A stretch of 64,000 bases of DNA from Gelidibacter pelagius (GTDB taxonomy: Bacteria > Bacteroidota > Bacteroidia > Flavobacteriales > Flavobacteriaceae): NCBI RefSeq assembly GCF_017581925.1, contig NZ_JAGEVG010000006.1:124001-188000 (forward strand), written 5' to 3'. Below the pieces are notes generated by a model, which did no database searches, was not told the origin of the DNA, and saw nothing but the letters and a program-made list of their open reading frames with translations. How positions within the stretch are numbered: the stretch's first letter is position 1; each line of letters opens with the position of its first letter. Positions 45,243-63,903 of the stretch are shown piece by piece. The translations under genes and the position numbers were made by a program.

Positions 45243-46799
45243 ATGTCTGTAAAAACAGTTTCAAAAAATTTAGAACGTCAAACCGAGAAAGATTTATACA
45301 ATTATCAAAAGAAGGCCATTGACAAGGTATTTAAAGCTTTTGATGAAGCTCCTTCCGACTATCATCTGCTCTATCAATTACCGACAGGTGGTGGGAAAAC
45401 TGTGATTTTTTCTGAATTTGTGAGGCAGTATTTAAAGAATCACGATAAAAAAGTGGTAATTCTTACCCACCGTATTGAATTGTTGAAACAGACGTCTAAG
45501 ATGTTGACAGAATTCAACGTGACCAACAAAGTAGTGGATAGTAAAGCCAATTTGGATGATCAGGCAAATTACAGCTGTTTTGTGGCGATGGTGGAAACAT
45601 TGAACAACCGACTCCAAGAGGACAAGTTGGATATTTCTGATGTGGGTCTAGTCATTATTGATGAGGCGCATTACAATTCGTTTACAAAACTTTTTAAGTA
45701 TTTTGAAAATTCCTTTATCCTTGGCGTGACAGCAACTCCCTTGAGTTCCAACAAGGACTTGCCAATGAAGGACAACTATAATGAGCTGATTACAGGAGAA
45801 ACTATTGAGCACCTTATTGAAAACAACTTCCTATCACGGGCAGAGACTTATCAATATAACGTGGGACTAACGTCTTTGGAAGTAGGATCCAACGGCGATT
45901 ATACCGTCAAATCTTCTGAAGATCTATACACCAATACCGACATGTTAAGAAAAGTGGTGTACGCCTATGAGCAACATTCACTTAATAAGAAAACGCTGAT
46001 CTTTAATAACGGGATCAACACTTCCTTACATGTGTACGATGCCTTTAAACGTGCTGGCTATACCATTGCGCACTTAGATAATACTGCGACCAAGAAGGAA
46101 CGGAAGATGATTCTGAAATGGTTCAAGGAAACACCGAATGCCATTTTGACTTCGGTGAGTATTTTGACTACCGGATTTGATGAGCCTTCTGTTGATACCA
46201 TCATTCTTAACAGAGCTACTAAATCCTTGGCCTTGTATTACCAAATGGTGGGACGTGGGTCTCGTATTTATAAGGGCAAAGAAGTATTTAAGATTATCGA
46301 TTTAGGTAACAATATGCACCGTTTTGGACCCTGGGGCGCAGATATTAACTGGCAGAAAATCTTCGGATCGCCAAATTATTATCTGGACAGTATTGTTAAT
46401 GATGATGATATTGAAGCCGATTTCAGATATGAGATGCCTGATGCCCTGCGTCAGGAATTTGCTAATTCTGAAGAGGTCTATTTTGATATGAAACAGGCCT
46501 ATACCGATTCTGTTAACAAAGGCGATTCTTCAAAAGTGCTTTTAGAGCAGTCCATTGCACATCACACGAAAATATGTGTTGAAAACAGTGAAGATGTGTA
46601 TGATGCCCTAGCCTTGATGAAATTGTTGGAGGACGATATCAATCACCGTTTAGAGCGCTACACACAATGTATCAGTAGAAGTACCTTCAACTTTGTAAAA
46701 TGGTTGCATGATGATTACCGCATGAAACTCCGAGCGCATATCAGGGAAAATTTCGATACTATTTATGAAGAAATTCATGGGCATCCGCCTGAGGATTAA
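45243..46799 (+). CDS. SF2 DEAD/DEAH-box helicase (XPB/RadD-like), copy B
   Basis: The 518-residue protein is a full-length paralogue of the helicase at 36347, with LPTGGGKTVIF, IIDEAHYNSF, GVTATPLSS and YYQMVGRGSRI. The C-terminal about 120 residues are also shared, and an extra acidic tail (DTIYEEIHGHPPED) is added here. The start at 45243 is chosen because a promoter ends at 45201; the in-frame TTG at 45171 is the promoter's -33 element. It is divergent from DUF1853. The two copies lie 7.4 kb apart, which suggests gene duplication with divergence in role. Confidence 0.88.
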   Translation: MSVKTVSKNLERQTEKDLYNYQKKAIDKVFKAFDEAPSDYHLLYQLPTGGGKTVIFSEFVRQYLKNHDKKVVILTHRIELLKQTSKMLTEFNVTNKVVDSKANLDDQANYSCFVAMVETLNNRLQEDKLDISDVGLVIIDEAHYNSFTKLFKYFENSFILGVTATPLSSNKDLPMKDNYNELITGETIEHLIENNFLSRAETYQYNVGLTSLEVGSNGDYTVKSSEDLYTNTDMLRKVVYAYEQHSLNKKTLIFNNGINTSLHVYDAFKRAGYTIAHLDNTATKKERKMILKWFKETPNAILTSVSILTTGFDEPSVDTIILNRATKSLALYYQMVGRGSRIYKGKEVFKIIDLGNNMHRFGPWGADINWQKIFGSPNYYLDSIVNDDDIEADFRYEMPDALRQEFANSEEVYFDMKQAYTDSVNKGDSSKVLLEQSIAHHTKICVENSEDVYDALALMKLLEDDINHRLERYTQCISRSTFNFVKWLHDDYRMKLRAHIRENFDTIYEEIHGHPPED

Positions 46800-47441: not shown

Positions 47442-49913
47442 ATGAAGAATTTATGTCTTTTTGCCCTGCTGATTGGGGGTCTTCTCAATCCACTGAATGT
47501 GAGTGCACAATCTAAAAGAAACACTAAAAAAGGAAAGAATCAGGTAGAAGCGCCTGCTCCAGAAAAGAAGAAGGACGAGGCCATCAAACCTTATGACAAG
47601 GTGATTACCAAAGACGCCATCACCGATGATGGCCTGTTCAAAATCCATAAGATAAAAGACAAATACTTCTTTGAAATTCAAGATAGTTTACTGAATAAAG
47701 ATATGCTGCTCGTGAGCCGCATGTCCAAATTGCCTTCTAATTTAGGTGGAGGCTACATGAATGCTGGGTCAAAAGCCAATGAACAATTGATTACATGGGA
47801 GCGTTTTCAGGACAAGATCTTGATCAAAGTCAAATCCTATAATGCTGTTGCCAATGACAGTTTGCCCATCAATATCTCCGTAAAAGCAAACAATTATGAG
47901 CCGGTCTTATTCGCCTTCGATATTGCGGCGTTTAGTAAAGATTCATCTGCTGTGGTGATTGATGTTACTAAATTCTACACCAGTGATGTCAAAGCGATTA
48001 GTGGCTTGTCCAGTAGACTCCGTGAGACTTACAAAGTCCGTAATTTGGACGATTCCCGTAGTTTTATCACCTCTGCAAAAAGTTTTCCTCTGAATATCGA
48101 AATCATTCAAGATTTTACCTATAATGCGTCAAAACCACCCATGCTTCCGGCTACGGAGACCATCAGTTTGCAAATGAACCAATCGATGGTCTTGTTACCG
48201 ACCACACCCATGCAGCCTCGTCTTGCCGATCCGCGCGTCGGGTTTTTTACGGTCAGTCAATATGATTATAGTAGTGAAGCTTTAAAATCAGATGAAAAAA
48301 CATATATCCGTCGCTGGCGTTTGGAACCTAAAGACGCTGCAGCTTATAATAGAGGCGAATTGGTAGAGCCCATCAAACCCATCGTGTATTACCTGGATCC
48401 TGCAACGCCTGAGAAACTGCGCAAATACATCAAGCAAGGCATTGAAGAATGGCAGAAACCATTTGAAACTGCAGGATTTAAAAATGCGATTATCGCGAAA
48501 GACCCACCAACTTACGAAGAAGACCCCGATTTCAGTCCAGAGGATATTCGGTATTCCGTAGTGCGTTATGTGGCAAGTACCACACGAAATGCGGTCGGAC
48601 CAAGTGTGTCTGATCCACGTACAGGTGAAATTATTGAAAGCGACATCATCTGGTACCACAACCATTTGCGATCCTATAGAAACCGATACATGCTTGAAAC
48701 TGGCGCCGCCAACCCTTCAGCACGTACTTTGGATACCAGCGATGAGGAAATAGGAGAAATGATGCGTATGGTGATTGCCCATGAAGTAGGCCACGCCTTA
48801 GGATTTCCACACAATATGGCCGCCAGTAATGCCTATGATGTGGAAAGTTATCGAAACGGTGCGTTCACTCAAGAGCATGGCATTGCGGCAAGTATTATGG
48901 ATTATGCCCGATACAATTATATTGCACAACCAGGCGATGAAAACATCCGATTTGTCCGTCAGATTGGGCCTTACGACCATTATGTCACCAATTGGGGTTA
49001 CCGTTGGATTCCAGGGGCAACCACAGAAGGGGAGACCCCAACCTTGGACCAGTGGGTGATGGATAAAGCTGGAGATCCGCAATATAAATATGGGAAACAG
49101 AGCAGTCGTTTTGATCCATCCTCACAAACCGAAGATATTGGGAACAACTCTATAAACGCGAGCACCTACGGACTTAAAAACCTAAAATATGTGGCAGAAC
49201 AACTTCCAACATGGACTAGCGATAAAACCAACGATTATGATGATTTAAAGGAATTGCAAGGGGAGTTGCTGGGCGTTTGGAACCGTTATATGGGCCATGT
49301 GACCACGCATATTGGCGGGGTCTATGAAGATACTAAAAAACCTAACCAAGGGGGTGTGATTTATACGCCAGCTTCAAAAGCCGATCAAAAAGCCGCGATG
49401 GCATGGCTGCAGGAAAACACTTTTGCAACCCCAACGTGGATGGTCAATTTCAATATTCTTCGCAATATTGATCACGCTGGCTATACTGAAACCTTTAGAA
49501 GTGCCCAAGCAAGACATTTAAACAGCATTCTTGATTTTGACGTCTTGGGGAGATTAATTGACGGAACCGCCGTCAGTAAAGAAAATTATTCGGCCTTGGA
49601 AATGTTACAGGAGATGCGCAAAGGGATTTGGAAAGAACTCAACAGCAATCAGGCCGTAGATGTGTACCGACGTAATTTGCAACGTGCCTATATCGACCGC
49701 ATGGCGTATTTAATGACTGAGGAATTGAAGCCTGGGCGTGGGGTAAGTGTTTATAATGTGAATCAATCTGATGTGAGAGCTTTGGTAAGAGGCGAATTGA
49801 ACACGTTGAAAACCCAATTGAACAGTCGCAAGAACACGGTGTCACATACCGAGACGAAATATCACTATCAGGATGCGATGAAGCGAATTGACTTGATTTT
49901 GGATCCTAAATAG
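47442..49913 (+). CDS. Secreted zinc-dependent metalloprotease (DUF5117/DUF5118 metzincin)
   Basis: The 823-residue protein has a signal peptide (ends ..NVSAQ) and a basic, low-complexity stretch. Then come the DUF5118 and DUF5117 regions usual in Bacteroidota (LLVSRMSKLPSNLGGGYMNAGSK near residue 90). The metzincin zinc motif HEVGHALGFPHN is at 447-458, followed by ASIMDYARYNYIAQPGD in the Met-turn region. It is predicted to be an exported or outer-surface peptidase with unknown substrate. The gene follows the repeat block and stands alone. Confidence 0.88.
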   Translation: MKNLCLFALLIGGLLNPLNVSAQSKRNTKKGKNQVEAPAPEKKKDEAIKPYDKVITKDAITDDGLFKIHKIKDKYFFEIQDSLLNKDMLLVSRMSKLPSNLGGGYMNAGSKANEQLITWERFQDKILIKVKSYNAVANDSLPINISVKANNYEPVLFAFDIAAFSKDSSAVVIDVTKFYTSDVKAISGLSSRLRETYKVRNLDDSRSFITSAKSFPLNIEIIQDFTYNASKPPMLPATETISLQMNQSMVLLPTTPMQPRLADPRVGFFTVSQYDYSSEALKSDEKTYIRRWRLEPKDAAAYNRGELVEPIKPIVYYLDPATPEKLRKYIKQGIEEWQKPFETAGFKNAIIAKDPPTYEEDPDFSPEDIRYSVVRYVASTTRNAVGPSVSDPRTGEIIESDIIWYHNHLRSYRNRYMLETGAANPSARTLDTSDEEIGEMMRMVIAHEVGHALGFPHNMAASNAYDVESYRNGAFTQEHGIAASIMDYARYNYIAQPGDENIRFVRQIGPYDHYVTNWGYRWIPGATTEGETPTLDQWVMDKAGDPQYKYGKQSSRFDPSSQTEDIGNNSINASTYGLKNLKYVAEQLPTWTSDKTNDYDDLKELQGELLGVWNRYMGHVTTHIGGVYEDTKKPNQGGVIYTPASKADQKAAMAWLQENTFATPTWMVNFNILRNIDHAGYTETFRSAQARHLNSILDFDVLGRLIDGTAVSKENYSALEMLQEMRKGIWKELNSNQAVDVYRRNLQRAYIDRMAYLMTEELKPGRGVSVYNVNQSDVRALVRGELNTLKTQLNSRKNTVSHTETKYHYQDAMKRIDLILDPK

Positions 49914-51376: not shown

Positions 51377-51424
51377 AATAATTAGTCACAAATGACTAAT
51401 TATTAGTTTATTTTGACTAATATT
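51377..51424 (+). promoter_or_regulatory. Operator of the TetR-regulated catabolic operon
   Basis: The arm AATAATTAGTCA (51377-51388) and its exact reverse complement (51393-51404) flank CAAA, a perfect 12-bp-arm palindrome. A third half-site TGACTAATATT lies at 51414-51424. The site is 46 bp before the TetR gene and overlaps the likely promoter (TATTTTG near 51408-51415), so the repressor probably regulates itself and the operon. Confidence 0.7.
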
Positions 51425-51450: not shown

Positions 51451-52107
51451 ATGACTACCAAAGAAAACATCATAAATGCCTCCACAAAATACTTTAACCA
51501 ACACGGTTTTAGTGCCGTAACCTTAAATGAAATTGCAGGGCATTTAGAAATGACGAGAGGGAATCTCACCTATCATTATAAGACCAAAGACGACTTACTT
51601 AAGGCCATCACGGAGGTGATGTGGAAAAAAATTGCCGCAGAACGCGCAAAATCGAGAGCCCTCCCCTCTTTTGAGAATCTCCATAATGAGGTGCAATTGT
51701 ATTATCGTTTTCAAAAAGAATACGCTTTTATCTTTTTAGACTCTCAAGTTTTAGTACATCCCATGGTCAAACCACAGTTTCGGGAAATGACTAAACAAAC
51801 GGTTTTAGATAATAAAAAAGCAATTGCTTTTGCCATATCTATAGGCAATATGAAACCAGAGCCTTTTAAAGGCGCTTACCATAATATTGCACTTCTGGTT
51901 TGGATGATTGCGTTCTTCTGGTCTGCACAACAGATTATTAGAGGCGATCAAAGTAAGGAAGATGGTGAAGCACTGATTTGGTCTATTCTTCTTCCGCATT
52001 TCACGGATAAAGGAAAAAAATCGATGACCGCCTTCTTTGGAGCAGATTATTTGGATAATCTGGGCGAAGCATTTGATACTACTATCGACAACTACATATC
52101 GTTTTAA
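51451..52107 (+). CDS. TetR/AcrR-family repressor of the acyl-CoA operon
   Basis: The 218-residue protein has the N-terminal TetR helix-turn-helix (ASTKYFNQHGFSAVTLNEIAGHLEMTRGNLTYHYKTKDDLL) and an alpha-helical ligand-binding domain. The stop is two bases before the start of the double acyl-CoA dehydrogenase gene, so it is the first gene of the operon. A perfect palindrome lies just upstream. By analogy with LiuR, AtuR and FadR-type regulators, an acyl-CoA intermediate of the pathway is the likely inducer; the identity is unknown. Confidence 0.9.
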   Translation: MTTKENIINASTKYFNQHGFSAVTLNEIAGHLEMTRGNLTYHYKTKDDLLKAITEVMWKKIAAERAKSRALPSFENLHNEVQLYYRFQKEYAFIFLDSQVLVHPMVKPQFREMTKQTVLDNKKAIAFAISIGNMKPEPFKGAYHNIALLVWMIAFFWSAQQIIRGDQSKEDGEALIWSILLPHFTDKGKKSMTAFFGADYLDNLGEAFDTTIDNYISF

Positions 52108-52109
52108 TC

Positions 52110-54449
52110 ATGACATATTTTTCAAAAGAACATAAAGAATTCAGACAACGCTTAAGAGAATTTCTTGAAAAAGAAGTGCAGCCTCACATTGCTGAATGGG
52201 AAGAAGCTGGTAGCATCCCACTTTCTATTTGGAAGAAAATGGGCGATCAGGACTTTCTTGGATTGTCTTACCCTAAAGAATACGGTGGCAAAGCCTTGGA
52301 TTATTTCTATGACGTGGTATTTAATGAAGAACTCGGTAAAATGAATTCTGGCGGATTTGTGATTACCCAACAAGTGGTACAATATATGTCTGCACCTTAT
52401 ATTTTAAACTATGGTTCAGAACACTTAAAAGAGAAATACTTACCAAGCATTATTTCTGGTGATACCGTAAGTTGTATTGCTATTACAGAGCCCGAAGCTG
52501 GTTCAGATATCGCAAACATTCAAACTTCTGCAGAAGCTAAAGACGACCATTATATCGTCAACGGTACTAAAACATTTGTCACCAACGGTATTCAGGGAAG
52601 TTTCGCCGTAACTGCAGTAAAAACGGATCTGGAAGCCGAAGCTAAGGGCATTAGTTTATTAGTGATCGATTTAGATTCGGAAGGCATTCATAAAACAGAA
52701 TTGAAAAAATTAGGCTGGCAGTCTTCGGATACCGCCACCTTAACTTTTGAAAATGTAAAAGTGCCTAAAGAAAATTTAATAGGCGAAACTGGCAAAGGCT
52801 TTGAGTACCTCATGAACGGACTGCAATTGGAGCGTTTATGCCTGGTGCCAAGCGCTATTGCGACTATGGAATACGCCCTTGACGAATCTTTACGTTATAT
52901 GGCAAACCGTAAAACCTTTGGTAAAAACTTAAATAAAGTTCAAGTATTACGTCATAAAATGGCCCAATTAACTTCCGAAGTTGAAGCCTTAAAAGCATTC
53001 AGTTATTATTGTGCCAAGGTCTACAACGAGGGAATTTATGATGTAAAACTTATTGCATCAGCCAAATTAATCGCCACAGAATTACACGAAAAAGTTGCCA
53101 CACAATGTCTGCAGATTTTTGGCGGCAGTGGCTTTATGGAGGATCATCCTTTAGCACGTATGTATAGAGATACGCGAGTTGGCACATTGAGCGCAGGATC
53201 TTCAGAAATGATGAAAGATATCATTGCCAAGGTTGTTATCGACAAGAAAGAATACACAAGCCTCACACATACTGAAACAAAACATCCTTCTCCTTTTAAT
53301 GAAGAGCACGACTTATTTAGAGCTTCCGTAAAAGACTTTTTAAAGCGAGAGGTGATTCCAAACTTGGATCAATGGGAAGAAGATGGCGAAGTGCCTCGAG
53401 AAGTCTATGAGAAATTTGGAGCCATGGGTTATTTTGGACTTCGTTTTCCGGAAGCGTATGGCGGTTCCGATTTAGACATTTGGTACGAAGTGGTGTTACA
53501 CGAAGAACTCTCACGAATCAACTCTGGTGGATTTGCCGCCGCCATGGGCGCCCATTTCTTCTTAGCCATGGTACATGTTAATGGCTCAGGAAATGAAGCA
53601 CAAAAACAAAAATATCTAACGGCAGGTAATGAAGGAAAACTCATTGGCTGTTTGGCGGTGACGGAACCTGATACAGGGTCTGACGTCAAATCCATTCGAA
53701 CATCTGCTGTAAAAGAAGGCGATCATTATATCATTAATGGCGCAAAAACTTTTATTACCAACGGTGTGAATAGCGATTATATTGTTGCAGCTGTTAAAAC
53801 CAATCCGGAAGCTGGGTATTATGGCATCAGCATGATGTTGATAGAACACGACAGAAAAGGTGTGAGTGCTACGAAGCTAAACAAACTGGGTTGGAAAGCC
53901 TCCGATACGGGAGAAATAGGATTGGACAACGTCAAAGTTCCCTTAGAAAACTTATTGGGAGAAGAAAACCACGGCTTCTTTTATATCATGCAACATTTTG
54001 TTTCTGAACGCTTATCCATAGCAGCAGGCTCGGTTTCTGGTGCAGAATACGCCATCGAACTGACTTTAGATTATATGAATCAAAGAGCTGTTTTTGGTAA
54101 GAAAATCAAGGAATTTCAGGTCTTGAGACATCGCATCGCCCAAATGTCGGCAGAGATTGCCTGCAACAAACAATTTTTATACAGCATTTATGACCGACAT
54201 AGTAAGGGTGAATATCTTGTAAAAGAAGCCTCTATGGCAAAGTTGGTCTGTTCACAAATGCTGGACAGAGTCACTTTTGAATGTCTTCAAATGTTTGGCG
54301 GGAATGGTTTTATGGAAGACTATCCGTTGGCACGTATGTGGCGTGATGCGCGATTAAATCAAATTGGTGGCGGAACCTCAGAAATACTTTGTGAAATTAT
54401 TTCAAAAATGATTGTTGATGAGAAAAACTATGCTTCAAAAACAGCATAG
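52110..54449 (+). CDS. Double acyl-CoA dehydrogenase in one chain
   Basis: The 779-residue chain contains two complete acyl-CoA dehydrogenases in tandem, about residues 1-380 and 394-779, joined by a short linker (TSLTHTETKHPSP). Each copy has the N-terminal domain (EVQPHIAEWEE / EVIPNLDQWEE), the FAD-contact TEPEAGSD / TEPDTGSD, and GGSGFMEDHPLARMYRD / GGNGFMEDYPLARMWRD. The catalytic Glu of the isovaleryl-CoA/long-chain type lies in helix G: Glu241 (LERL) and Glu633 (SERL). The usual Glu before GTSEI is absent in both. A single polypeptide could thus form one flavoprotein with two active sites acting on different chain lengths or steps. No frameshift is involved. Confidence 0.9.
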   Translation: MTYFSKEHKEFRQRLREFLEKEVQPHIAEWEEAGSIPLSIWKKMGDQDFLGLSYPKEYGGKALDYFYDVVFNEELGKMNSGGFVITQQVVQYMSAPYILNYGSEHLKEKYLPSIISGDTVSCIAITEPEAGSDIANIQTSAEAKDDHYIVNGTKTFVTNGIQGSFAVTAVKTDLEAEAKGISLLVIDLDSEGIHKTELKKLGWQSSDTATLTFENVKVPKENLIGETGKGFEYLMNGLQLERLCLVPSAIATMEYALDESLRYMANRKTFGKNLNKVQVLRHKMAQLTSEVEALKAFSYYCAKVYNEGIYDVKLIASAKLIATELHEKVATQCLQIFGGSGFMEDHPLARMYRDTRVGTLSAGSSEMMKDIIAKVVIDKKEYTSLTHTETKHPSPFNEEHDLFRASVKDFLKREVIPNLDQWEEDGEVPREVYEKFGAMGYFGLRFPEAYGGSDLDIWYEVVLHEELSRINSGGFAAAMGAHFFLAMVHVNGSGNEAQKQKYLTAGNEGKLIGCLAVTEPDTGSDVKSIRTSAVKEGDHYIINGAKTFITNGVNSDYIVAAVKTNPEAGYYGISMMLIEHDRKGVSATKLNKLGWKASDTGEIGLDNVKVPLENLLGEENHGFFYIMQHFVSERLSIAAGSVSGAEYAIELTLDYMNQRAVFGKKIKEFQVLRHRIAQMSAEIACNKQFLYSIYDRHSKGEYLVKEASMAKLVCSQMLDRVTFECLQMFGGNGFMEDYPLARMWRDARLNQIGGGTSEILCEIISKMIVDEKNYASKTA

Positions 54450-54484
54450 CACAACGATGCCTACAACTTTAATACAAATTTAAG

Positions 54485-56086
54485 ATGAGTGTTTTAAAAT
54501 CAAAAATCAATATCAACGCTGCAGCCAGCAAAGAAAACTATCAAAAGATGGTGGACTTGGTTTCAGAATTGAACAAAAAATATAAGGAAGGTAGTTTTCA
54601 AGGGGATGAAAAACACATCACCAGAGCAAGAAAAAGACAGAAATTCTTAGCCAGAGAACGCATCGAATTGTTGTTGGATAGAGACAGTCCTTTTTTGGAA
54701 TTATTGCCTTTAGCCGGTATGAACAATAAAAACGGCTTTGGTGCTGGAGGCACAAGTGTTTCTGGTATTGGCTTGGTTCACGGCAAGTTTTGCATGATCA
54801 ACTCCAATGTGGGCACCCGTAAAGGTGGTTCCGTAGATTACGCGACTGTTTTTAAAGGACTAAGAATTGGCGATATCACACGAGAATGTAAATTACCAAC
54901 CATCAATTTAGTTGAAAGTGGCGGCGCCAATTTACCTGACCAAGCCAAAATATTTAATTATGGTGGCGAAGGATTTAGAGAAATCACCAGACGTTCCGAA
55001 TTAGGAATTACAACCATTGCCGTTGTTTTTGGTAATGCTACTGCTGGTGGGGCTTATATCCCAGGAATGTCTGATTATTCCATATTTCAAAAGCAAGCTG
55101 CAAAAGTGTTTTTAGCCGGTCCGCCTTTAGTGAAAATGGCGACCAATGAGATTGCAACCGATGAAGAACTGGGAGGTGCAGAAATGCATAGTAGAGAATC
55201 TGGTGTTTCAGATTATTTAGCGGAAGATGAATTGGATGCGATTCGAATCGCCAGAGAAATCATGGAATTTGTGCCAGAAAAGACGCCACATTTAATTCCT
55301 ACAGAAGACATTAAAATCCCTTTATATCCATCAGACGAAATCTTATCTGTGGTTCCTGCCGATATCAAAACCCCTTTTGATGTTAGAGAACTCATTATGC
55401 GGATTACCGATGGATCTGAATTTTCCGAATTTAAGGCAGAATACGGTAGTACTATGGTTTGCGGGTGGTCTAAAATAAACGGCTACCCAGTTGGAATCAT
55501 TGGAAATAACGGTGTTATTTTTTCTGAATCTGCCAACAAAGGCGCGCAGTTTATTCAGTTGTCCAATCAAAAGAACATTCCCCTACTCTTCCTACAGAAT
55601 ACCACGGGGTATATGGTTGGAAAAGAATATGAAAGAGGTGGCATCATTAAAAACGGCGCGAAATTAATCAATGCCGTTTCCAACTCTAAAGTACCATCTA
55701 TCACCTTAATGATTGGGAGTTCTTTTGGCGCTGGTAATTATGGGATGAACGGACGTTCTTTTGAACCTAATTTCTTGTTTGCTTATCCCAATTCAAAAAT
55801 TGGCGTGATGGGCTCAGAACAATTGGCAGGTGTGATGGAAATTATTCAAAAAGCATCCAACGAAGCCAAAGGACTTCCTGATAATCCCGAACAAACCAAT
55901 ATGATAAAAGCCATGTTGGTTGCAGAAGCTGAATCAAAATCATCTGCATGGCATTCCACTTCTGAACTTTGGGATGATGGTATTATCGACCCGAAAGAAA
56001 CACGGAATTATCTCGGCTTTTGTTTAGCGGTTTTATACAATCAAGAAATTAAAGGCACCAACAGTTATGGTGTTTGGAGACACTAA
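54485..56086 (+). CDS. Acyl-CoA carboxylase beta subunit (MCC/GCC-like carboxyltransferase)
   Basis: The 533-residue subunit transfers carboxyl from carboxybiotin to an acyl-CoA. It has the crotonase-like carboxyltransferase fold, with oxyanion-hole glycines visible in GNATAGGAYIPGMSDY and IGSSFGAGNYGMNGR, plus the family element GSTMVCGWSKINGYPVGIIGNNGV. Sequence and context (ACAD before, biotin carboxylase after, hydratase next) fit methylcrotonyl-CoA or geranyl-CoA carboxylases better than acetyl-CoA or propionyl-CoA ones. The selective residues for chain length were not assigned by me. Confidence 0.88.
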   Translation: MSVLKSKININAAASKENYQKMVDLVSELNKKYKEGSFQGDEKHITRARKRQKFLARERIELLLDRDSPFLELLPLAGMNNKNGFGAGGTSVSGIGLVHGKFCMINSNVGTRKGGSVDYATVFKGLRIGDITRECKLPTINLVESGGANLPDQAKIFNYGGEGFREITRRSELGITTIAVVFGNATAGGAYIPGMSDYSIFQKQAAKVFLAGPPLVKMATNEIATDEELGGAEMHSRESGVSDYLAEDELDAIRIAREIMEFVPEKTPHLIPTEDIKIPLYPSDEILSVVPADIKTPFDVRELIMRITDGSEFSEFKAEYGSTMVCGWSKINGYPVGIIGNNGVIFSESANKGAQFIQLSNQKNIPLLFLQNTTGYMVGKEYERGGIIKNGAKLINAVSNSKVPSITLMIGSSFGAGNYGMNGRSFEPNFLFAYPNSKIGVMGSEQLAGVMEIIQKASNEAKGLPDNPEQTNMIKAMLVAEAESKSSAWHSTSELWDDGIIDPKETRNYLGFCLAVLYNQEIKGTNSYGVWRH

Positions 56087-56101
56087 AAGGAACTCAATAG
56101 C

Positions 56102-58081
56102 ATGAAACATATCAATACAATTTTAGTTGCAAACAGAGGAGAAATTGCGTCCCGCATTTTCAGAACTTGCAAGCAAATGGGAATTATCTCAGTTGCTGTA
56201 TACGCCGATGCCGATAAAAACGCACCTTATGTACAAGAAGCAGATCTTGCCATTCATATTGGTGATTCGGAGCCTGCGGCTTCCTATTTGAATCAAGATA
56301 AAATCATTGCCGCTGCAAAACAAGTGAATGCTGATGCCATTCATCCTGGCTATGGTTTTCTATCTGAAAATCCTGATTTTGCAGAGCGATGTCATACAGA
56401 AAATCTCATTTTTATTGGTCCAAATGTAGAAGCCATAAGAGCCATGGGTTCTAAGGCAGAAGCTAAATCCATTATGGAAAAAGCGAAGGTACCAACCATT
56501 CCAGGCTATAAAGGTAAAGATCAGTCTCCTCAAACCTTAAAAGACGAAGCTTTACGCATTGGATTCCCGCTCTTGTTAAAAGCGACCTATGGTGGTGGTG
56601 GTAAAGGCATGCGCATCGTCCATAAAGAAGACGAATTAGACAATGCCATTACATCTTCAAAAAGAGAAGCTATGAATGCTTTTGGCAATGATGATTTAAT
56701 GGTGGAGAAATATATCGCTTCTGGGAGACATATCGAGTTTCAGGTATTTGGGGATCAACACAGGAATGTGATTCATATTTTAGAAAGAGAATGTACCATC
56801 CAAAGACGCTACCAAAAAGTAGTGGAAGAAAGCCCCTCTCCTGTTTTGACTCAAGAACTTAGAGATCGTATGGGCAAGGTGGCTGTGGCTGCAGTTAAAG
56901 CGCTGAATTATGATAATGCTGGTACCGTAGAATTTATTTTTGATGAGTCCACCAACGACTTCTTTTTCCTTGAAGTCAACACCAGATTACAAGTAGAGCA
57001 TCCGGTTACAGAAGAAATTACCGATTTGGACTTAGTTAAAATGCAAATTGAATCCGCAAAAGGAATGCCATTGCAAGTAAAACAAGAAGACATCAAAGGC
57101 AATGGTTATGCTATTGAAGTCCGGTTGTATGCCGAAGACGCGGAAAATAATTTCGCACCAGTTACTGGTACCGTACATAAGCTTAGCTATCCGGAAGTTG
57201 AAGGATTGAGAGTGGAATCTGCCATTCAAACAGGTTCCGAAATTTCGATGCATTATGATCCGATGATTGCTAAAATTATTGTGCACGACAGCAATAGAAT
57301 TGCAGCACTGAACAAATTGAATTATGTCCTCAAAAACACGATTTGCCAAGGCACAAAAACAAATTTAGCCTTCTTACAAACCATCATAAACAATGATGAT
57401 TTTATAGCTGGTAACTACGATACGCATTTTATTGAAAACAAATTAGACTTAACGGCTATAGCTACACTAAATCAACAAGATAAAGAAGAGTTAGCCATAG
57501 TTTCAACCTTATACAATTGGCAACAACGCCAACATCAGCGGACAAAATTAAGAGCGATTCCTTCTGGATGGCGGAATAACTTTTACGAACATCAAAAAGA
57601 ATCGATTGTTGTCAATGATGAAGACATCACCGTTCAGTATCGCTATTTAGATGATAGCTTTGAGGTGCTAATCAATGATGAAAAACGTACTTCTGAAATC
57701 ATAAATTGTTCGGAAGACAGCATTCGTTTAAGCACCAACGGACTTCAAAAGACCTTTGCAATTTGCGTAAAAGATAAGTTCACCTATATCCATACGCCGT
57801 CCATTGGAAATGTAGAAGTTTTACGTTTGGATCGTTTCCCAGTAAAAGAGAAGGCAAAAGAAAAAGGAGGCTACACCTCCCCTATGCCTTCAAAAATCAT
57901 CAAACTGCTTGTTGCCACAGGTGATGTGGTTAAAGAAAACGATCCTTTAATCGTTATTTCTTCCATGAAAATGGAAAGTACCATTATGGCTGATGAAGAT
58001 GGCACCATCGAAGAAATTTTTGTTGAAGAAGGTCAGAATGTCCAAGTAGATCATTTATTACTAAAAATAAACAGCAAGTAA
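56102..58081 (+). CDS. Acyl-CoA carboxylase alpha subunit: biotin carboxylase plus biotinyl domain
   Basis: The 659-residue subunit carboxylates biotin with ATP and bicarbonate. The biotin carboxylase part (about 1-450) has ILVANRGEIASRIFRTCKQMG, the ATP loop YGGGGKGMRIV and FLEVNTRLQVEHPVTEE. The biotinylated lysine is Lys623 in SSMKMEST near the C-terminus, and a linking BT-like domain lies between. It lies 15 bp after the beta-subunit gene and two bases before the hydratase gene. Together the two subunits form the complete enzyme. Confidence 0.92.
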   Translation: MKHINTILVANRGEIASRIFRTCKQMGIISVAVYADADKNAPYVQEADLAIHIGDSEPAASYLNQDKIIAAAKQVNADAIHPGYGFLSENPDFAERCHTENLIFIGPNVEAIRAMGSKAEAKSIMEKAKVPTIPGYKGKDQSPQTLKDEALRIGFPLLLKATYGGGGKGMRIVHKEDELDNAITSSKREAMNAFGNDDLMVEKYIASGRHIEFQVFGDQHRNVIHILERECTIQRRYQKVVEESPSPVLTQELRDRMGKVAVAAVKALNYDNAGTVEFIFDESTNDFFFLEVNTRLQVEHPVTEEITDLDLVKMQIESAKGMPLQVKQEDIKGNGYAIEVRLYAEDAENNFAPVTGTVHKLSYPEVEGLRVESAIQTGSEISMHYDPMIAKIIVHDSNRIAALNKLNYVLKNTICQGTKTNLAFLQTIINNDDFIAGNYDTHFIENKLDLTAIATLNQQDKEELAIVSTLYNWQQRQHQRTKLRAIPSGWRNNFYEHQKESIVVNDEDITVQYRYLDDSFEVLINDEKRTSEIINCSEDSIRLSTNGLQKTFAICVKDKFTYIHTPSIGNVEVLRLDRFPVKEKAKEKGGYTSPMPSKIIKLLVATGDVVKENDPLIVISSMKMESTIMADEDGTIEEIFVEEGQNVQVDHLLLKINSK

Positions 58082-58083
58082 TT

Positions 58084-58902
58084 ATGGAATTTTTTAATAA
58101 AGAACTTGTAGATAAAGCCTTGGAGCAAACCTTTGCTTTTATCCAATTGAAATTTGAAGCACACGTCCTTACGCTGACATTAGATAGAGCGGAAAAGAAA
58201 AATGCGATTCACCCACAAATGGTGCAAGAAATTGCTTTTGCCATGCAATTCGCCAAACAAATAAATGCCGTAAGAGCTGTGGTGATTGACGCTCTGGGCG
58301 ATGTGTTTTGTGCTGGTGCCGATTTAAAGGCATTTATGGGCATGGTTGGTGAATTTGAATCCTCTATTCCAAAATCAGATCAGGAGATATTATTAGGAGA
58401 ACTTTTCAATAAAGTACACAAACCGGTGATTTCTAAAATTGAAGGCGATGTGTTTGCAGGCGGACTCTTTTTCCTGGCAGGTCCAACCTATGTGGTTTGT
58501 AATGCCGATGTAAAACTTGGATTACCAGAAGTAAAACGTGGCTTATTCCCATTTCAAGTCATGGCATCACTGTTAGAAATCATGCCGAAACGAAAAGTAA
58601 TCGATTGGTGTATCAATGGCGATAATATAGATGCTAATAAAGCCTTTGAATATGGGTTAGTGACGCACATGGCTACCAAAGACACCATAGATGAAACGGT
58701 GAACAGCATTATAAATAAGCTTCTTGAGAACTCCCCTATGGCGATCCGTTTGGGATTGGAAGCAGCTGATTATATCAATAAAAAAGAATCTGAACATGCC
58801 TATTTAATGCAAATGCTTCAAAAAACAATTATGTCTAAAGACGCTCAGGAAGGCTTGTTGGCATTTAAAGAAAAAAGAAAACCAAATTGGTCTGACCAAT
58901 AA
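58084..58902 (+). CDS. Enoyl-CoA hydratase/isomerase (crotonase fold)
   Basis: The 272-residue protein has the oxyanion-hole elements EKKNAIHPQMVQEIA with FCAGADLKAFMGM and the second hole EGDVFAGGLFFLAG. In crotonase two Glu activate water; here the position in LPEVKRG is Glu but the other (Glu144 of rat crotonase) falls on an aromatic residue. That leaves one acid, as in some methylglutaconyl-CoA hydratases. By position after a carboxylase it could hydrate a 3-methylglutaconyl-CoA-like product, as LiuC or AtuE do. Soluble. Confidence 0.87.
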   Translation: MEFFNKELVDKALEQTFAFIQLKFEAHVLTLTLDRAEKKNAIHPQMVQEIAFAMQFAKQINAVRAVVIDALGDVFCAGADLKAFMGMVGEFESSIPKSDQEILLGELFNKVHKPVISKIEGDVFAGGLFFLAGPTYVVCNADVKLGLPEVKRGLFPFQVMASLLEIMPKRKVIDWCINGDNIDANKAFEYGLVTHMATKDTIDETVNSIINKLLENSPMAIRLGLEAADYINKKESEHAYLMQMLQKTIMSKDAQEGLLAFKEKRKPNWSDQ

Positions 58903-58914
58903 AAACACAAAATT

Positions 58915-59775
58915 ATGATTTACAAAAAACTAATCTTATCCGCAGCATTAACAGGTGCTGCAACCAATAGAACGCACTGTCCGGACATCCCTTATACGCC
59001 TAAAGAATTAGGTTTGGAAGCAAAACGTGCCGTAGATGCTGGTGCTGCCATCGTTCATATTCACGCGAGAGAAGACAATGGTATGCCTTCTTGGCGCACA
59101 GAGGTTTTTCAAGAAATTTCGGAAGAAGTGAGAAAGCATTCTAAAGACGTCATTATCAATTATTCTACTGGTGCAATTGGTCTTTCTATAGAAGATCGTT
59201 TAAAGCATTTACCTGCAACAAAACCAGATATGGCGGCTTTTAATATGGGAAGCATGAACTATGCGATATTCTCTAAAAGAGCCAAACAATTTATTTGGAA
59301 TGGGGTTTTTGAGAACTCTTTTGACGACATGATCAAGGTTGTTGAAACGATGAACGAGAACAATATTTGTCCAGAAATGGAATGTTTTGATACGGGGCAT
59401 ATCAGAAATGCACAACCTTTAAAAGAAATGGGATTACTCCCTGATAATGCATGTTACAGTTTAGTGATGGGTGTTTTAGGAGGTATTGATGCTACGGCAG
59501 AGAATCTCATCCATCAGATAAAACAAGTTCCAGAAGGTGCTTTTTGGCAATCTATCGTCATCAGTAGAAAACAATGGCAATTGTCTGCAATCGCAGCCGC
59601 CATGGGAGGGAATTTCAGAGTTGGTTTAGAAGATAATTTTTACTTACCAAACGGAGATATGGCAAAATCGAACGGCGAATTAGTAGACGCTGGGATGACT
59701 TTAGCAAAATCTGTAGGTAGAGAAGTTGCGACTATAGAAGAAGCCAGAGCCATGCTCAATATCCCTTTAAAATAA
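58915..59775 (+). CDS. 3-keto acid cleavage enzyme (BKACE, DUF849)
   Basis: BKACE enzymes cleave a beta-keto acid with acetyl-CoA into acetoacetate and the acyl-CoA two carbons shorter. The 286-residue protein has the zinc ligands His48-x-His50 (VHIHARED) and Glu239 (RVGLEDN), the same ones as in 3-keto-5-aminohexanoate cleavage enzyme. The substrate-binding strand near residue 11 (AALTGAATNRT) differs from lysine-fermentation enzymes, and lysine-fermentation genes are absent. In this operon it sits where a lyase of the HMG-CoA type would normally act. Confidence 0.87.
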   Translation: MIYKKLILSAALTGAATNRTHCPDIPYTPKELGLEAKRAVDAGAAIVHIHAREDNGMPSWRTEVFQEISEEVRKHSKDVIINYSTGAIGLSIEDRLKHLPATKPDMAAFNMGSMNYAIFSKRAKQFIWNGVFENSFDDMIKVVETMNENNICPEMECFDTGHIRNAQPLKEMGLLPDNACYSLVMGVLGGIDATAENLIHQIKQVPEGAFWQSIVISRKQWQLSAIAAAMGGNFRVGLEDNFYLPNGDMAKSNGELVDAGMTLAKSVGREVATIEEARAMLNIPLK

Positions 59776-59785
59776 TAAACGTACT

Positions 59786-60592
59786 ATGTTTCAATCCAAT
59801 ACATTTAAAGATCAGGTGGTTTTAGTGACGGGAGGTCGCTCTGGAATCGGCTTTCAAATCGCCAAAGATATGCTGCAATTGGGCGCCAAAGTCATTATTT
59901 GCTCACGTAAAGAAGCGCCCTTAAAAGAAGCCGCTGAAAAACTCTCTGAATTCGGATACGTCGATTATCAAGCTTGTGATATTCGAAATACCGAAGAAAT
60001 CCAAGCATTGGCCGCCATGATCAAAGAAAAACACGGAAGACTGGATGTTTTGGTAAACAATGCTGGAGGTCAATTTCCTGTACTTGCCGAGTATTTAAAT
60101 GATAAAGGTTGGAATGCAGTAATCAATAACAATCTAAACGGCACATTTTATATGATCCGTGAAATGGCAAACGCTTTTTTTATTCCTCAAAAACAAGGTA
60201 ATATCGTCAATATTATTGTGGATATGCATCGAGGTTTTCCTGGGATGATCCATACGGGTGCTGCAAGAGCTGGGGTTGAAAACATCACAAAAACCTTAGC
60301 CCAAGAATGGAGCGAGTTTAATATCAGAATCAACTGTGTGGCACCAGGAATTATAGAATCGAGCGGTTTAGATACCTATCCGGCACAAGTTCAAGACATG
60401 TTTGCTGAAGCCAAAAAAGCCATTCCTTTAAAACGTTTTGGTGATGTGAAAGACATCTCCAATGCCGTTGCGTTTTTAGCGAGTCCGCTGGCGTCCTATA
60501 TCACAGGGATTTCATTGTATGTAGATGGCGCACAGCATTTAAACTATGATAAAATGGGATTGCCAAACGTATTAAAATCCTTCTTAAAATAA
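59786..60592 (+). CDS. SDR oxidoreductase, PECR/2,4-dienoyl-CoA reductase-like
   Basis: The 268-residue protein has the SDR cofactor loop TGGRSGIGFQIA and NNAGG. Instead of the usual Tyr-xxx-Lys it reads HTGAARAGVENITKTLAQEW, the pattern of peroxisomal trans-2-enoyl-CoA reductase and dienoyl-CoA reductases. That fits reduction of an enoyl-CoA rather than an ordinary ketone. The C-terminal ASPLASYITGISLYVDGAQ is typical of SDRs. It lies ten bases after the BKACE gene. Confidence 0.85.
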   Translation: MFQSNTFKDQVVLVTGGRSGIGFQIAKDMLQLGAKVIICSRKEAPLKEAAEKLSEFGYVDYQACDIRNTEEIQALAAMIKEKHGRLDVLVNNAGGQFPVLAEYLNDKGWNAVINNNLNGTFYMIREMANAFFIPQKQGNIVNIIVDMHRGFPGMIHTGAARAGVENITKTLAQEWSEFNIRINCVAPGIIESSGLDTYPAQVQDMFAEAKKAIPLKRFGDVKDISNAVAFLASPLASYITGISLYVDGAQHLNYDKMGLPNVLKSFLK

Positions 60593-60599
60593 CGAACTG

Positions 60600-62375
60600 A
60601 TGAGCACAAAACAACTTATAAATGGTGGCGCTTTTTTAATATATACGCCAGATTCCGAGAGTGTTTTTACACCCGAAGAATACACCGAAGATCAGCTATT
60701 GATTAGAGCATCTGTCAGAGCGTTTTTAGACCGAGAAATTGAACCTATAAAACACGTTTTTGATACCAAGGAAGGCACGAAAATAGCACCGGAAAAATTG
60801 GAACTATTAGGCGAATTAGGCTTTTTAGGTTTATCCGTACCTGAGAAATTCGGCGGCATGGGTTGCGATATCAAAACAGATATGGCGGCATCCGAAATCA
60901 TGTCCGATAGTTTTGCATTTGCACAATCTATGGGCGTTCAGAGAGGATTAGGGATTAATACCATTCTTTTTTATGGCACCCCAGAACAGCAAGAAAAATA
61001 TTTAGGAGGCATTATTGCCGGTAAAATTAAATGTTCTTATTGTTTAACAGAACCTGGTGCAGGTTCGGATGCGAATTCCGGGAAAACAAAAGCGACACTT
61101 TCGGCTGATGGCAAACATTATATTCTCAACGGACAAAAGATGTGGATTACCAATGCAGGATTTGCAGACGTGTTCTCTGTGTTTTGCAAAATAGACGGCG
61201 ATGAAAATTTATCTTGTTTGATTGTTGAAAAAGAATGGGGCGTGACCTTAGGTGCTGAAGAAGACAAAATGGGCATCCATGGCTCGTCCACACGACAAGT
61301 GTTTTTTGAAGATGTCAAAGTCCCTGTTAAAAACCTTTTAGGCGAACGGAATAAGGGCTTCAAGATTGCCATGAATGCCTTAAATCTCGGTCGATTGTTT
61401 ATCGGAATCGCAGGATCTGGAATCTCAAAAAGAGCTTTTAAACTCGGCGTCACTTACGCCAACCAACGCGTTCAGTTCAATCAAACCATTGCCTCTTTTG
61501 GTGCTATTCAAGAAAAAATTGCCAAGATGGCGGTGTCTATTTATGCCTTAGAATCGAGTTGGAACCGCTTGGCTGGAGATATGGATACCATGTACGATCT
61601 TTTCCTATCTGAAACGGCAAACGAATTGCTCTCTAAACAAAAAGTAGCTCAAGAATACGCTACAGAATGCGCCATTATTAAAGTGTTTGGTTCTGAAGTG
61701 GAGCAATTTGTAGTCGATGAAGCGCTACAGATTCATGGTGGGATGGGCTACTCTAATGAAAGTGATATCTCGGTATTGTATAGAAATATTCGCGGCAACA
61801 GAATTTACGAAGGCACCAATGAGATAAATCGGCTATTAATTCCAGGAACTATTTTAAAATTGGCTTTCAAAGGAAAAATTCCGCTAATGGAAACCGTAAT
61901 GAAAACCTTTGGCGACTTACAAGCTGGTAATTTAAAACCTGCCGACCCTGCCCTATCTTTTGCTGACTTTAGTTTGGAGTATTTAAACAATTGCAAAAAG
62001 CTTGCGCAATTAGTGTGCGGTCAAGCCATGCAAAAATTCCAACAAGACATAGAAAAAGAGCAAGAGGTGTTGTCCAGGCTTTCCGATATCATTTCTCAAG
62101 TCTATATTCTTGAAAGTGTGGTGTTGAGAAGCATTAAAAACAAGAGTCATCAAACAGAATTAAGAGAAGCCATGACCAGCATTTTCATCTATGAATCTGC
62201 TAAAATCATAAACGACGCTGCCCAAGAGGTTATTTACGCAAGTGCAGCCCCAGAAATGGCTCTGATGAGTTTTAAAGCGATTAAAAAGCTCATTCAGCTC
62301 CCTGCAGAACATATTATAGAAAAAAGAAGAGTTGTTGCAAAACACTTTATCGAAGAAAATAAATACAAATTATAA
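60600..62375 (+). CDS. Acyl-CoA dehydrogenase, VLCAD/ACAD9-like
   Basis: The 591-residue enzyme is about 200 residues longer than the short-chain type because of a C-terminal helical domain (from about residue 430), as in VLCAD and ACAD9. The FAD site reads TEPGAGSDANSGKT. The catalytic Glu is Glu404 in RIYEGTNEI, at the position used by medium- and very-long-chain enzymes, in contrast to the double enzyme at 52110 which has it in helix G. The extra C-terminal domain commonly gives membrane association. It follows the SDR gene by seven bases. Confidence 0.9.
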   Translation: MSTKQLINGGAFLIYTPDSESVFTPEEYTEDQLLIRASVRAFLDREIEPIKHVFDTKEGTKIAPEKLELLGELGFLGLSVPEKFGGMGCDIKTDMAASEIMSDSFAFAQSMGVQRGLGINTILFYGTPEQQEKYLGGIIAGKIKCSYCLTEPGAGSDANSGKTKATLSADGKHYILNGQKMWITNAGFADVFSVFCKIDGDENLSCLIVEKEWGVTLGAEEDKMGIHGSSTRQVFFEDVKVPVKNLLGERNKGFKIAMNALNLGRLFIGIAGSGISKRAFKLGVTYANQRVQFNQTIASFGAIQEKIAKMAVSIYALESSWNRLAGDMDTMYDLFLSETANELLSKQKVAQEYATECAIIKVFGSEVEQFVVDEALQIHGGMGYSNESDISVLYRNIRGNRIYEGTNEINRLLIPGTILKLAFKGKIPLMETVMKTFGDLQAGNLKPADPALSFADFSLEYLNNCKKLAQLVCGQAMQKFQQDIEKEQEVLSRLSDIISQVYILESVVLRSIKNKSHQTELREAMTSIFIYESAKIINDAAQEVIYASAAPEMALMSFKAIKKLIQLPAEHIIEKRRVVAKHFIEENKYKL

Positions 62376-62385
62376 ACAGATACAA

Positions 62386-63903
62386 ATGAGCAATTATCAT
62401 TTTACAGAAGAACACTTAATGTTTCAGGAAAGTTTGAAAGCATTCATGAAAAAAGAAGTGATTCCGAACATAGACACCTGGGAAGAAGAACAACGGATCC
62501 CAACTGAGGTATGGAAAAAAATGGGCGACTTAGGCTTTTTAGGATTAGGATTTCCGGAAGAGTTTGGTGGTTCAGACTTAGATTTCTTTTACGATGTTAT
62601 TTTTGTTGAAGAACTCGCTAAAGTATTTTCAGGCGGTTTTGCCATCACCCAAGCGGTTGTGCAATACATGTCCAGTCCGTATATTTTAAAACACGGGTCG
62701 CAACAATTAAAAGAAAAATATCTGCCAAAACTCATTTCTGGTGATGCCATAAGCGGGATCGCCATTACAGAACCTTCGGCTGGTTCCGATGTGGCGAATA
62801 TACAAACTACAGCCACTTTAGAAGGTGATCATTATATTCTGAATGGCTCTAAAACATTCATTACCAATGCGGTTTATGGCGATTTCGTCATCTGTGTCGT
62901 AAAAACGGACGTCAGTGCCGGACCTGGAGGTGTCAGTCTTTTGGTAGTCGATTTAGATGCGGATGGCATTCAAAAAACGAAATTAAAGAAATTGGGTTGG
63001 CATGCTTCCGATACGGCAGAACTATCTTTTGACAACGTTAAAGTGCCAAAAGAGAATTTAATCGGACAGGAAGGTCAAGGCTTTTATTATTTGATGGGCG
63101 GTCTACAGTTAGAACGCTTGGTCGGCGCCATTATGGGCTATGCCGCAAGCGAATCTGCTTTGGAGTACACCTTGCAATACATGTCTGAACGAACTGCTTT
63201 TAACAGACCAATCAACAAGTTTCAAGTCTTAAGACATCGCATGGCACAATTGGCATCAGAAATAGAAGCCTGCAAACAATTTGTACTGCATTGTTCTCGA
63301 CTTCATAATGATGGAAAATACGCAGTTAAAGAAAGCTCTATGGCAAAACTATTGGCTACAGAACTCTCCGACAAAACCATGACCCAATGTTTACAATCGT
63401 TTGGTGGCTATGGCTATATGGAAGAATATAAAATCGCCAGAATGTTTAGGGACAGCAGAATCGGGACTATTGGTGGCGGAACCTCAGAAATCATGAGGGA
63501 GATTATCGCCAAAATGGTCATTGACGATGTGAGTTATGAAAAAAGCACAGAAACTAAAAACGAAATTAATACCAATATAAATTTAAAAACAGATCAAAAA
63601 ATGAGCACACAATTAGAAACACTTTTAGACGTCATTAAAGCAAAAACAGCAAAAGTAGACCCAATCGGACATACACTGAAATTCGATTTTGGAGAAGAGC
63701 AATTATACATCGATGGCAAAGGCGATGTCAACCAAGTTTCCACCAGCAATGACCCAGCAGAATGTGTTATAGAAACAAGTTTCGAAGACTTTATAGCACT
63801 AACAAAAGGCGAATTGAATCCGATGGCTGCCGTTATGGGTGGGAAAGTAAAAATTAAAGGCGATATGTCTGTAGCCATGAAGTTGCAAACCATTTTTGGA
63901 TAG
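62386..63903 (+). CDS. Acyl-CoA dehydrogenase fused to an SCP2 lipid-binding domain
   Basis: The chain has 505 residues from the ATG at 62386; an upstream in-frame ATG at 62332 lies within the preceding gene. Residues 1-385 are an acyl-CoA dehydrogenase like the first half of the double enzyme, with TEPSAGSDVAN, Glu243 in LERL and GGYGYMEEYKIARMFRD. Residues 406-505 are an SCP2 sterol carrier domain (TLKFDFGEEQLYIDGKGD and FIALTKGELNPMAAVMGGKVKIKGD, given in part). The linker (TETKNEINTNINLKTDQK) reads like translated spacer DNA. An ATG at 63601 starts the SCP2 part and may be used separately. The domain suggests a bulky hydrophobic acyl-CoA is handled. Confidence 0.9.
   Translation: MSNYHFTEEHLMFQESLKAFMKKEVIPNIDTWEEEQRIPTEVWKKMGDLGFLGLGFPEEFGGSDLDFFYDVIFVEELAKVFSGGFAITQAVVQYMSSPYILKHGSQQLKEKYLPKLISGDAISGIAITEPSAGSDVANIQTTATLEGDHYILNGSKTFITNAVYGDFVICVVKTDVSAGPGGVSLLVVDLDADGIQKTKLKKLGWHASDTAELSFDNVKVPKENLIGQEGQGFYYLMGGLQLERLVGAIMGYAASESALEYTLQYMSERTAFNRPINKFQVLRHRMAQLASEIEACKQFVLHCSRLHNDGKYAVKESSMAKLLATELSDKTMTQCLQSFGGYGYMEEYKIARMFRDSRIGTIGGGTSEIMREIIAKMVIDDVSYEKSTETKNEINTNINLKTDQKMSTQLETLLDVIKAKTAKVDPIGHTLKFDFGEEQLYIDGKGDVNQVSTSNDPAECVIETSFEDFIALTKGELNPMAAVMGGKVKIKGDMSVAMKLQTIFG

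Follow-up and report, generated by a model that had tools for sequence, protein, structure and literature searches.

We analyzed a stretch of 64,000 nucleotides from Gelidibacter pelagius (contig NZ_JAGEVG010000006.1, positions 124,001 to 188,000; hereafter the window), which contains an operon of nine open reading frames (ORFs) led by a TetR-family regulator and encoding, among other enzymes, both subunits of an acyl-CoA carboxylase and a beta-keto acid cleavage enzyme (BKACE). We favor, with modest confidence, the explanation that the operon encodes a route for 3-methyl-branched (isoprenoid) acyl-CoAs resembling the Atu pathway of Pseudomonas, in which a lyase encoded elsewhere in the genome acts first and BKACE acts next. 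The observations behind this explanation are the gene content, the residue marks and tree position that the carboxylase shares with geranyl-CoA carboxylase (GCC), the conservation of the gene set, a palindrome common to its promoters, and a separate gene of the 3-hydroxy-3-methylglutaryl-CoA (HMG-CoA) lyase family.

We infer the route in its activities, its substrate, the lyase products, both cleavage steps and the role of the repressor as follows. The acyl-CoA synthetase would form the acyl-CoA, an acyl-CoA dehydrogenase (ACAD) would convert it to the 3-methyl-2-enoyl-CoA, the GCC-type carboxylase would add a carboxyl group to the methyl branch, and the crotonase would hydrate the carboxylated product to 3-hydroxy-3-alkylglutaryl-CoA. 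The genomic HMG-CoA lyase would cleave the latter, releasing acetyl-CoA and, in free form, the beta-keto acid R-CO-CH2-COOH, from which BKACE, using acetyl-CoA, would make acetoacetate and R-CO-SCoA, and R-CO-SCoA would enter beta-oxidation up to the next methyl branch. With a longer 3-hydroxy-3-alkylglutaryl-CoA, HMG-CoA lyase chemistry would give acetyl-CoA together with a 3-oxo acid in free form, and these two are the kind of substrate pair that a BKACE uses. The acetyl-CoA made by the lyase would offset that spent by BKACE, leaving a net yield of acetoacetate and an acyl-CoA that has lost three carbons; the carbons balance for geranyl-CoA (C10 + CO2 to a C7 acyl-CoA and the C4 acetoacetate). 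The presence of BKACE fits a substrate longer than methylcrotonyl-CoA, because with a leucine substrate BKACE would act on acetoacetate and regenerate acetoacetate. The TetR protein would repress the operon through the sequence TTAGTC-N6-GACTAA until an acyl-CoA relieved the repression.

Gene content of the operon

The nine ORFs (51451-63903) all lie on the forward strand, with gaps of 2, 35, 15, 2, 12, 10, 7 and 10 bp between successive ORFs. An earlier reading of this DNA from its letters alone (the sequence-only reading) had described a TetR-led operon for the degradation of branched or isoprenoid-like acyl-CoAs, and scans with Pfam and NCBIfam upheld every one of its nine family assignments. 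The direction that it gave for the substrate agrees with the GCC marks, the tree and an AtuG-like short-chain dehydrogenase/reductase (SDR), and the acyl-CoA synthetase that it had proposed to look for past the window end was found there on the same strand.

The best PDB match of the SDR was peroxisomal trans-2-enoyl-CoA reductase (PECR; 213 bits), followed by 6lln, a 'dehydrogenase involved in catabolism of citronellol' (203 bits). PDB matches of the ACAD-SCP2 protein include long-chain and isovaleryl-CoA dehydrogenases. In the crotonase the equivalent of Glu144 is gone, the position being hydrophobic in 53 of 53 sequences, and the equivalent of Glu164 (E149) is retained in all 53. Loss of the first Glu with retention of the second is typical of bacterial methylglutaconyl-CoA hydratases. 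The loss of Glu144 had also suggested a hydroxycinnamoyl-type hydratase-lyase, an idea that was set aside because 3i47 lacks this Glu as well in a gap-free alignment.

The carboxylase carries the marks of geranyl-CoA carboxylase

The beta subunit scored nearly equally against the solved chains of GCC (491 bits) and methylcrotonyl-CoA carboxylase (MCC, 483 bits). Because the scores were so alike, we applied a published residue rule, according to which, in the accessible text of PMC4673880, GCC has a Gly where MCC has Phe191 and is missing the preceding 3-residue insert. The window beta subunit has Gly160 in place of Phe191 and no insert, and both features are present in 52 of 52 cluster orthologs. 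Its N terminus is extended as in MCC, unlike that of propionyl-CoA carboxylase (PCC), the alignments starting with its residue 5 at residue 4 of GCC and with its residue 1 at residue 21 of MCC. Contig C79 of this genome encodes another beta subunit, in which both the insert and the Phe are present. When 385 Bacteroidota genomes were sampled and up to three candidates from each were scored, 19 had a beta-subunit match at the cut-off, and all 17 non-window matches inspected (of 18; L157 was not extracted) carry the MCC marks.

A maximum-likelihood tree of 38 rows joined the cluster beta subunits to GCC (5ikl) with support of 100/98, and a reduced tree of 21 rows gave the same grouping with 100/99. 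Grouping of the cluster beta subunits with the MCC of P. aeruginosa was rejected on the reduced set (p-AU 0.0027) by a test designed after the first tree had been seen. Despite its MCC marks, the C79 beta subunit was placed among other proteins of Bacteroidota and not within the clade that holds the characterized MCCs. The alpha subunit gave a weak match to BT_MCC_alpha (28.7 bits, below the cut-off of 31). From the marks and the tree, we infer that the operon carboxylase is GCC-type and would prefer geranyl-type substrates.

BKACE and a separate lyase-family gene

The operon BKACE matches PF05853 with 312 bits (E 4e-93) and is the only member of this family in the genome. An AlphaFold model built from 44 sequences (pLDDT 91.8) has a TIM-barrel fold, and in a Foldseek search with the model ranks 1-21 were all DUF849/BKACE structures (query TM 0.86-0.93). 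All 44 BKACE sequences compared (a selection from 81) have H48, H50 and E239 (Zn ligands), E156 (base), R235 and D240. The roles of R235 and D240 are in part presumed, and Ala16 stands where the Kce of lysine fermentation has a Glu that we take to bind the amino group of the substrate. By its residues and modeled fold, the protein belongs to PF05853, and its predicted activity is the formation of acetoacetate from a 3-oxo acid.

The roles of the Zn ligands and of the catalytic Glu are those given in the accessible parts of PMC12871164 and PMC11961710 (section 9). The text of PMC12871164 also states a Tyr (Tyr145 in CcaKce) for all BKACEs, at a site where the window BKACE has Phe158, invariant in the 44 sequences. 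We considered Phe158 as a mark of altered chemistry and dropped it, since, of 23 further family members (14 from a Bacteroidota sample, 2 relatives and 7 of 718 plasmid records), 19 also have a Phe here, as do the solved DUF849 structures 3no5, 3fa5 and 3chv. One of these members, L149, has, besides the Phe, the Glu16 found in a lysine-fermentation Kce. Because Phe is common in the family, a Tyr at this site does not define it.

A scan of one genome per species over 84,980 species, which used exact BKACE peptide words and was thus limited to close kin, found 161 BKACE relatives. The 80 loci kept for analysis were all titled Bacteroidota (Gelidibacter, Aquimarina, Saprospiraceae, Chitinophagales, Crocinitomicaceae and others). 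Four of 148 relatives matched BKACE at 1e-30, namely the genome itself, a congeneric genome (99%) and two distant relatives (38% and 31%); the BKACE of Gelidibacter gilvus is 99% identical to that of the window. In samples of 395 genomes each from the order and from the phylum, only the genome itself matched at 1e-60. The wider PF05853 family was found in 18 of 390 Bacteroidota genomes.

A blastp search with HMG-CoA lyase against the ORFs of the 80 BKACE loci gave zero matches, and no lyase gene lies between the window end and the contig end, in agreement with the sequence-only reading, which had seen no lyase in the cluster. However, the same reading had put BKACE in the lyase's place, and here it fared worse. 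A protein of the HMG-CoA lyase family is encoded on contig C21; its best PDB match is HMG-CoA lyase 1ydo, and it scored 187 bits against PRK05692, below the NCBIfam cut-off of 246. Such a gene lies elsewhere in 43 of 48 searched BKACE-bearing genomes, which were chosen through 50 of the 80 loci, although in one of the 43 (that of L078) the match is partial and contains a stop. In gene order, two of the lyase-negative loci (L049 and L051) match L053 and L056, which come from genomes with the lyase, and the absence therefore points to incomplete assemblies. The separate lyase-family gene, the ordinary residues of BKACE, and the fact that the substrate of ordinary BKACEs is a beta-keto acid and not a 3-hydroxy-3-alkylglutaryl-CoA make it more likely that BKACE acts after the lyase than in its stead. 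As a side observation, the sub-cut-off score suggests that the family of the C21 protein may be under-annotated in Bacteroidota.

The gene set recurs across Bacteroidota

Linkage to BKACE was counted for matches of at least 40% identity, with limits of 7.5 kb and the BKACE strand for the carboxylase subunits, the hydratase and TetR, and of 9 kb for the downstream genes; at least 5.5 kb of upstream sequence is available in 56 of the 80 loci and at least 5 kb of downstream sequence in 49. Both carboxylase subunits were near BKACE in 47 of the 56 loci (beta in 48, alpha in 48), the hydratase in 41 and TetR in 32. Downstream, the ACAD-SCP2 type was found in 36 of the 49 loci, the SDR in 29, the FadE-like ACAD in 20 and the synthetase in 10. 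The search for conserved gene order that the sequence-only reading had suggested thus shows a recurrent cluster, and because it recurs across Bacteroidota the gene set is not simply an arrangement due to chance. BKACE is the most conserved cluster protein in most loci, with 72-91% identity outside Gelidibacter, compared with about 41-85% for the carboxylase and hydratase. TetR and the carboxylase are separated in Aquimarina by the synthetase and a further SDR, with an aldehyde dehydrogenase coming afterwards; across the 80 loci, 18 have an aldehyde dehydrogenase near the cluster, and 11 of these are from Aquimarina (three were confirmed with Pfam).

No AtuA-like gene was recognized in the window cluster, with ORFs of at least 400 aa outside Aquimarina read by eye only and the G. 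pelagius genome not searched. In the literature, no title or abstract among the matches listed joined BKACE with geranyl-CoA carboxylase, in a search that mostly did not reach subscription papers, and the matches listed for phytol decarboxymethylation and for isoprenoid degradation in Aquimarina held nothing useful.

Other proteins were seen near the cluster in single loci or small groups of loci. L096, L098 and L100 have BKACE and the SDR beside a synthetase and ACADs, with no carboxylase nearby. CoA-transferase family III proteins, by eye like alpha-methylacyl-CoA racemase, occur in L059, L083, L089 and L092 (e.g. L092:389-1471; one was checked with Pfam). L038:2379-3842 is an FMO-like flavin monooxygenase and possibly a Baeyer-Villiger enzyme. 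Close to BKACE on a Microscilla contig, L086:1419-3005 belongs to the FAD amine-oxidase family and resembles, by eye, carotenoid/retinol desaturases/saturases. Nitronate-monooxygenase-like proteins were seen in L046, L062, L066, L078 and L089; the one checked with Pfam (L078:10996-11976) directly follows BKACE.

A palindrome shared by the cluster promoters

Two copies of a palindrome precede the TetR gene, and the first is the sole zero-mismatch site in the window (Table 1). The consensus, TTAGTC-N6-GACTAA, is common to most TetR/carboxylase promoters of the cluster. A site with at most 2 mismatches lies within 250 bp upstream in 34 of 41 TetR regions, compared with 1.7% of shuffled regions. 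With no more than 1 mismatch allowed, the 80 loci (1.2 Mb) hold 44 sites; 43 of them lie within 400 bp upstream of cluster TetR, carboxylase or BKACE genes, including carboxylase promoters at loci whose TetR sits elsewhere. Since the motif was derived from these regions and the Aquimarina loci are closely related, the counts do not amount to independent tests. In 114 other loci (587 kb), the palindrome was found only in Gelidibacter copies of the cluster. Within the window, 2 sites with at most 2 mismatches were found and 2.4 were expected from the pattern. It is because of its position upstream of cluster genes, not the rarity of the pattern, that we propose the palindrome as an operator, and TTAGTC-N6-GACTAA is probably that of the cluster TetR regulator.

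Weighing the alternatives

Several findings weigh against the proposed pathway. The tree contains a single GCC reference (5ikl), which sits on a long branch and has a letter composition that was flagged as unusual. The palindrome was derived from the same regions in which it was later counted. In nine of the 56 loci (L034, L046, L074, L087, L096, L097, L098, L099 and L100) the BKACE strand has only one nearby carboxylase subunit or none; in L087 the carboxylase genes are on the opposite strand, whereas L074 shows only alpha and L099 only beta. AtuE (4zu2) is distant from the operon crotonase (64 bits, rank 36 of 42). The lyase is equally common in relatives (53 of 59), nearly all of which are without this BKACE, and is therefore a general gene whose presence is not specific; with up to 1 mismatch allowed, the palindrome is absent from all 30 lyase loci scanned (L101-L130). 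Lastly, the published products of the Atu lyase, as far as the accessible text goes, are acetate and a 3-oxoacyl-CoA, with which there would be little need for BKACE.

The published lyase products favor an Atu-like pathway with textbook products, in which BKACE would serve only to salvage keto acids hydrolyzed from 3-oxoacyl-CoA, or would act on another substrate of the regulon. That BKACEs use many short 3-oxo acids (accessible parts of PMC6365646 and PMC4922564) is in line with this. However, the BKACE gene adjoins the hydratase gene in the window, and its conservation, the highest of the cluster in most loci, is above what we would expect of a salvage enzyme. We regard this alternative as rather unlikely.

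We consider it improbable that the BKACE homolog itself cleaves 3-hydroxy-3-alkylglutaryl-CoA, having taken over, for long-chain substrates, the step of a non-homologous HMG-CoA-lyase-type enzyme. A BKACE of the Bacteroidota clade would then have turned into a lyase, or would combine cleavage and acyl transfer in one site, and isoprenoid acids would yield acetoacetate and acyl-CoA without an HMG-CoA-lyase-type enzyme. Such a role would agree with the lack of a lyase match at the 80 loci and of the operator at the genomic lyase loci, with the 5 of 48 cluster-bearing genomes in which no lyase match was found, with the distinct clade of this BKACE, whose best match among plasmids is 39% identical, and with Phe158 in place of the published Tyr. 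On the other side, the Zn ligands, Glu156, Arg235 and Asp240 of ordinary BKACEs are retained, the Phe is widespread in the family, and two of the five lyase-negative genomes are probably incomplete assemblies.

That the operon is a variant of the Liu (leucine) operon made of redundant copies is very improbable, for the near-equal MCC and GCC scores, the weak BT_MCC_alpha match and the C79 copy outside the characterized-MCC clade, with which either copy might serve leucine, stand against Gly160, the missing insert, the grouping with GCC, the MCC-marked beta subunit elsewhere in the genome and the pointlessness of a BKACE on acetoacetate. Plain leucine catabolism, which would have made the operon ordinary in the eyes of the sequence-only reading, is thus largely answered by the GCC-type carboxylase and the MCC-marked copy, although the latter falls outside the clade of characterized MCCs.

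If the pathway in which BKACE follows a genomic lyase is correct, a recurrent and previously unassigned isoprenoid-acid route of Bacteroidota would be recognized, and a whole clade of BKACEs would gain a physiological role. The products of the lyase of the citronellol pathway would become testable, as acetate and 3-oxoacyl-CoA or as acetyl-CoA and a free 3-oxo acid, the latter being suggested by the kinship of this lyase to HMG-CoA lyase. The regulator and the operator motif would provide a handle for finding more genes of the regulon.

Comparison with known systems

By family and marks, the operon and its neighboring synthetase share with Atu of Pseudomonas (atuABCDEFGH, AtuR) a GCC-type carboxylase pair, an ACAD, a crotonase, an AtuG-like SDR and a synthetase. 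Atu likewise has, in the accessible literature, a TetR-family regulator with promoter palindromes; however, the AtuR site quoted in PMC9973270 is not the same as the cluster palindrome. The operon, found in Bacteroidota, adds BKACE, the double ACAD, ACAD-SCP2 and the FadE-like ACAD. With the Liu operon it has in common an ACAD, a gamma-carboxylase pair and a hydratase, but the carboxylase has GCC and not MCC marks, a lyase is absent from the operon and BKACE is added. The operon BKACE resembles BKACE/Kce (PF05853) in sequence family, Zn and catalytic residues and fold, and differs in forming its own Bacteroidota clade among the sequences found, in Ala16 and in its linkage to a GCC-type carboxylase. 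The deoxyribonate pathway offers a precedent, in which a BKACE in a catabolic operon is proposed to release acetoacetate and an acyl-CoA; it differs in its sugar-acid substrate and in being without a carboxylase step, as described in the accessible text of PMC6365646.

Origin in Gelidibacter

BKACE was found in 2 of 9 Gelidibacter genomes. In the Gelidibacter genomes G002 and G003, the left-hand neighbor of the operon and the ThiE-like gene share a contig, about 5 kb of different DNA separates them and the cluster is absent, and in the tree the cluster beta subunit nests beside Aquimarina. Because of these two findings, Gelidibacter likely gained the operon through transfer. The alternative is that the cluster was lost from the other Gelidibacter genomes. 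Base composition was uninformative as a sign of transfer (39.5 vs 38.1% GC).

Features and surroundings of the operon

Table 1. Features of the operon, its proposed operator and related genes (window coordinates unless a contig is given)
Feature	Coordinates	Strand	Basis or remark
Perfect palindrome TTAGTCACAAATGACTAA, proposed TetR operator	51382..51399	.	Sole zero-mismatch site in window
Second copy of proposed operator, one mismatch	51403..51420	.	Pattern scan
TetR-family regulator, 218 aa	51451..52107	+	ORF list, Pfam/NCBIfam
Double ACAD, two full ACAD units fused, 779 aa	52110..54449	+	Pfam/NCBIfam
Carboxyltransferase beta subunit, predicted GCC type, 533 aa	54485..56086	+	Marks, alignment, tree
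Biotin carboxylase/biotin carboxyl carrier protein (BCCP) alpha subunit, 659 aa	56102..58081	+	Pfam/NCBIfam; biotin motif MKM
Crotonase-family hydratase, 272 aa	58084..58902	+	Pfam/NCBIfam, PDB matches
BKACE, 286 aa	58915..59775	+	PF05853, residues, model
SDR akin to PECR and AtuG, 268 aa	59786..60592	+	PDB matches
ACAD like FadE and very-long-chain acyl-CoA dehydrogenase (VLCAD), 591 aa	60600..62375	+	Pfam/NCBIfam
ACAD-SCP2 fusion, 505 aa	62386..63903	+	Pfam/NCBIfam, PDB matches; start taken as ATG 62386, ignoring a TTG further upstream
AMP-binding acyl-CoA synthetase	64146-65855 (L002:3146-4855), beyond window end	+	242 bp past the ACAD-SCP2 gene
HMG-CoA-lyase-family protein	Contig C21, L015:6469-7329		Profile and PDB match

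The window sits in a contig of 192,715 bp in a genome of 4.49 Mb. After the synthetase, unrelated genes, among them the ThiE-like one (by eye), continue to the contig end. Two similar helicase-like ORFs were recognized by eye at 36347-37861 and 45171-46799 of the window, and a by-eye relative of them (L090:2542-4035) lies directly 5' of the carboxylase gene in another genome. To the left of the operon, 47442-49913 encodes a large protein that looks by eye like a zinc metalloprotease; a second copy with 50-52% identity is present in the nine genomes of the genus, and L100:1-1539 is a further relative, also recognized by eye.

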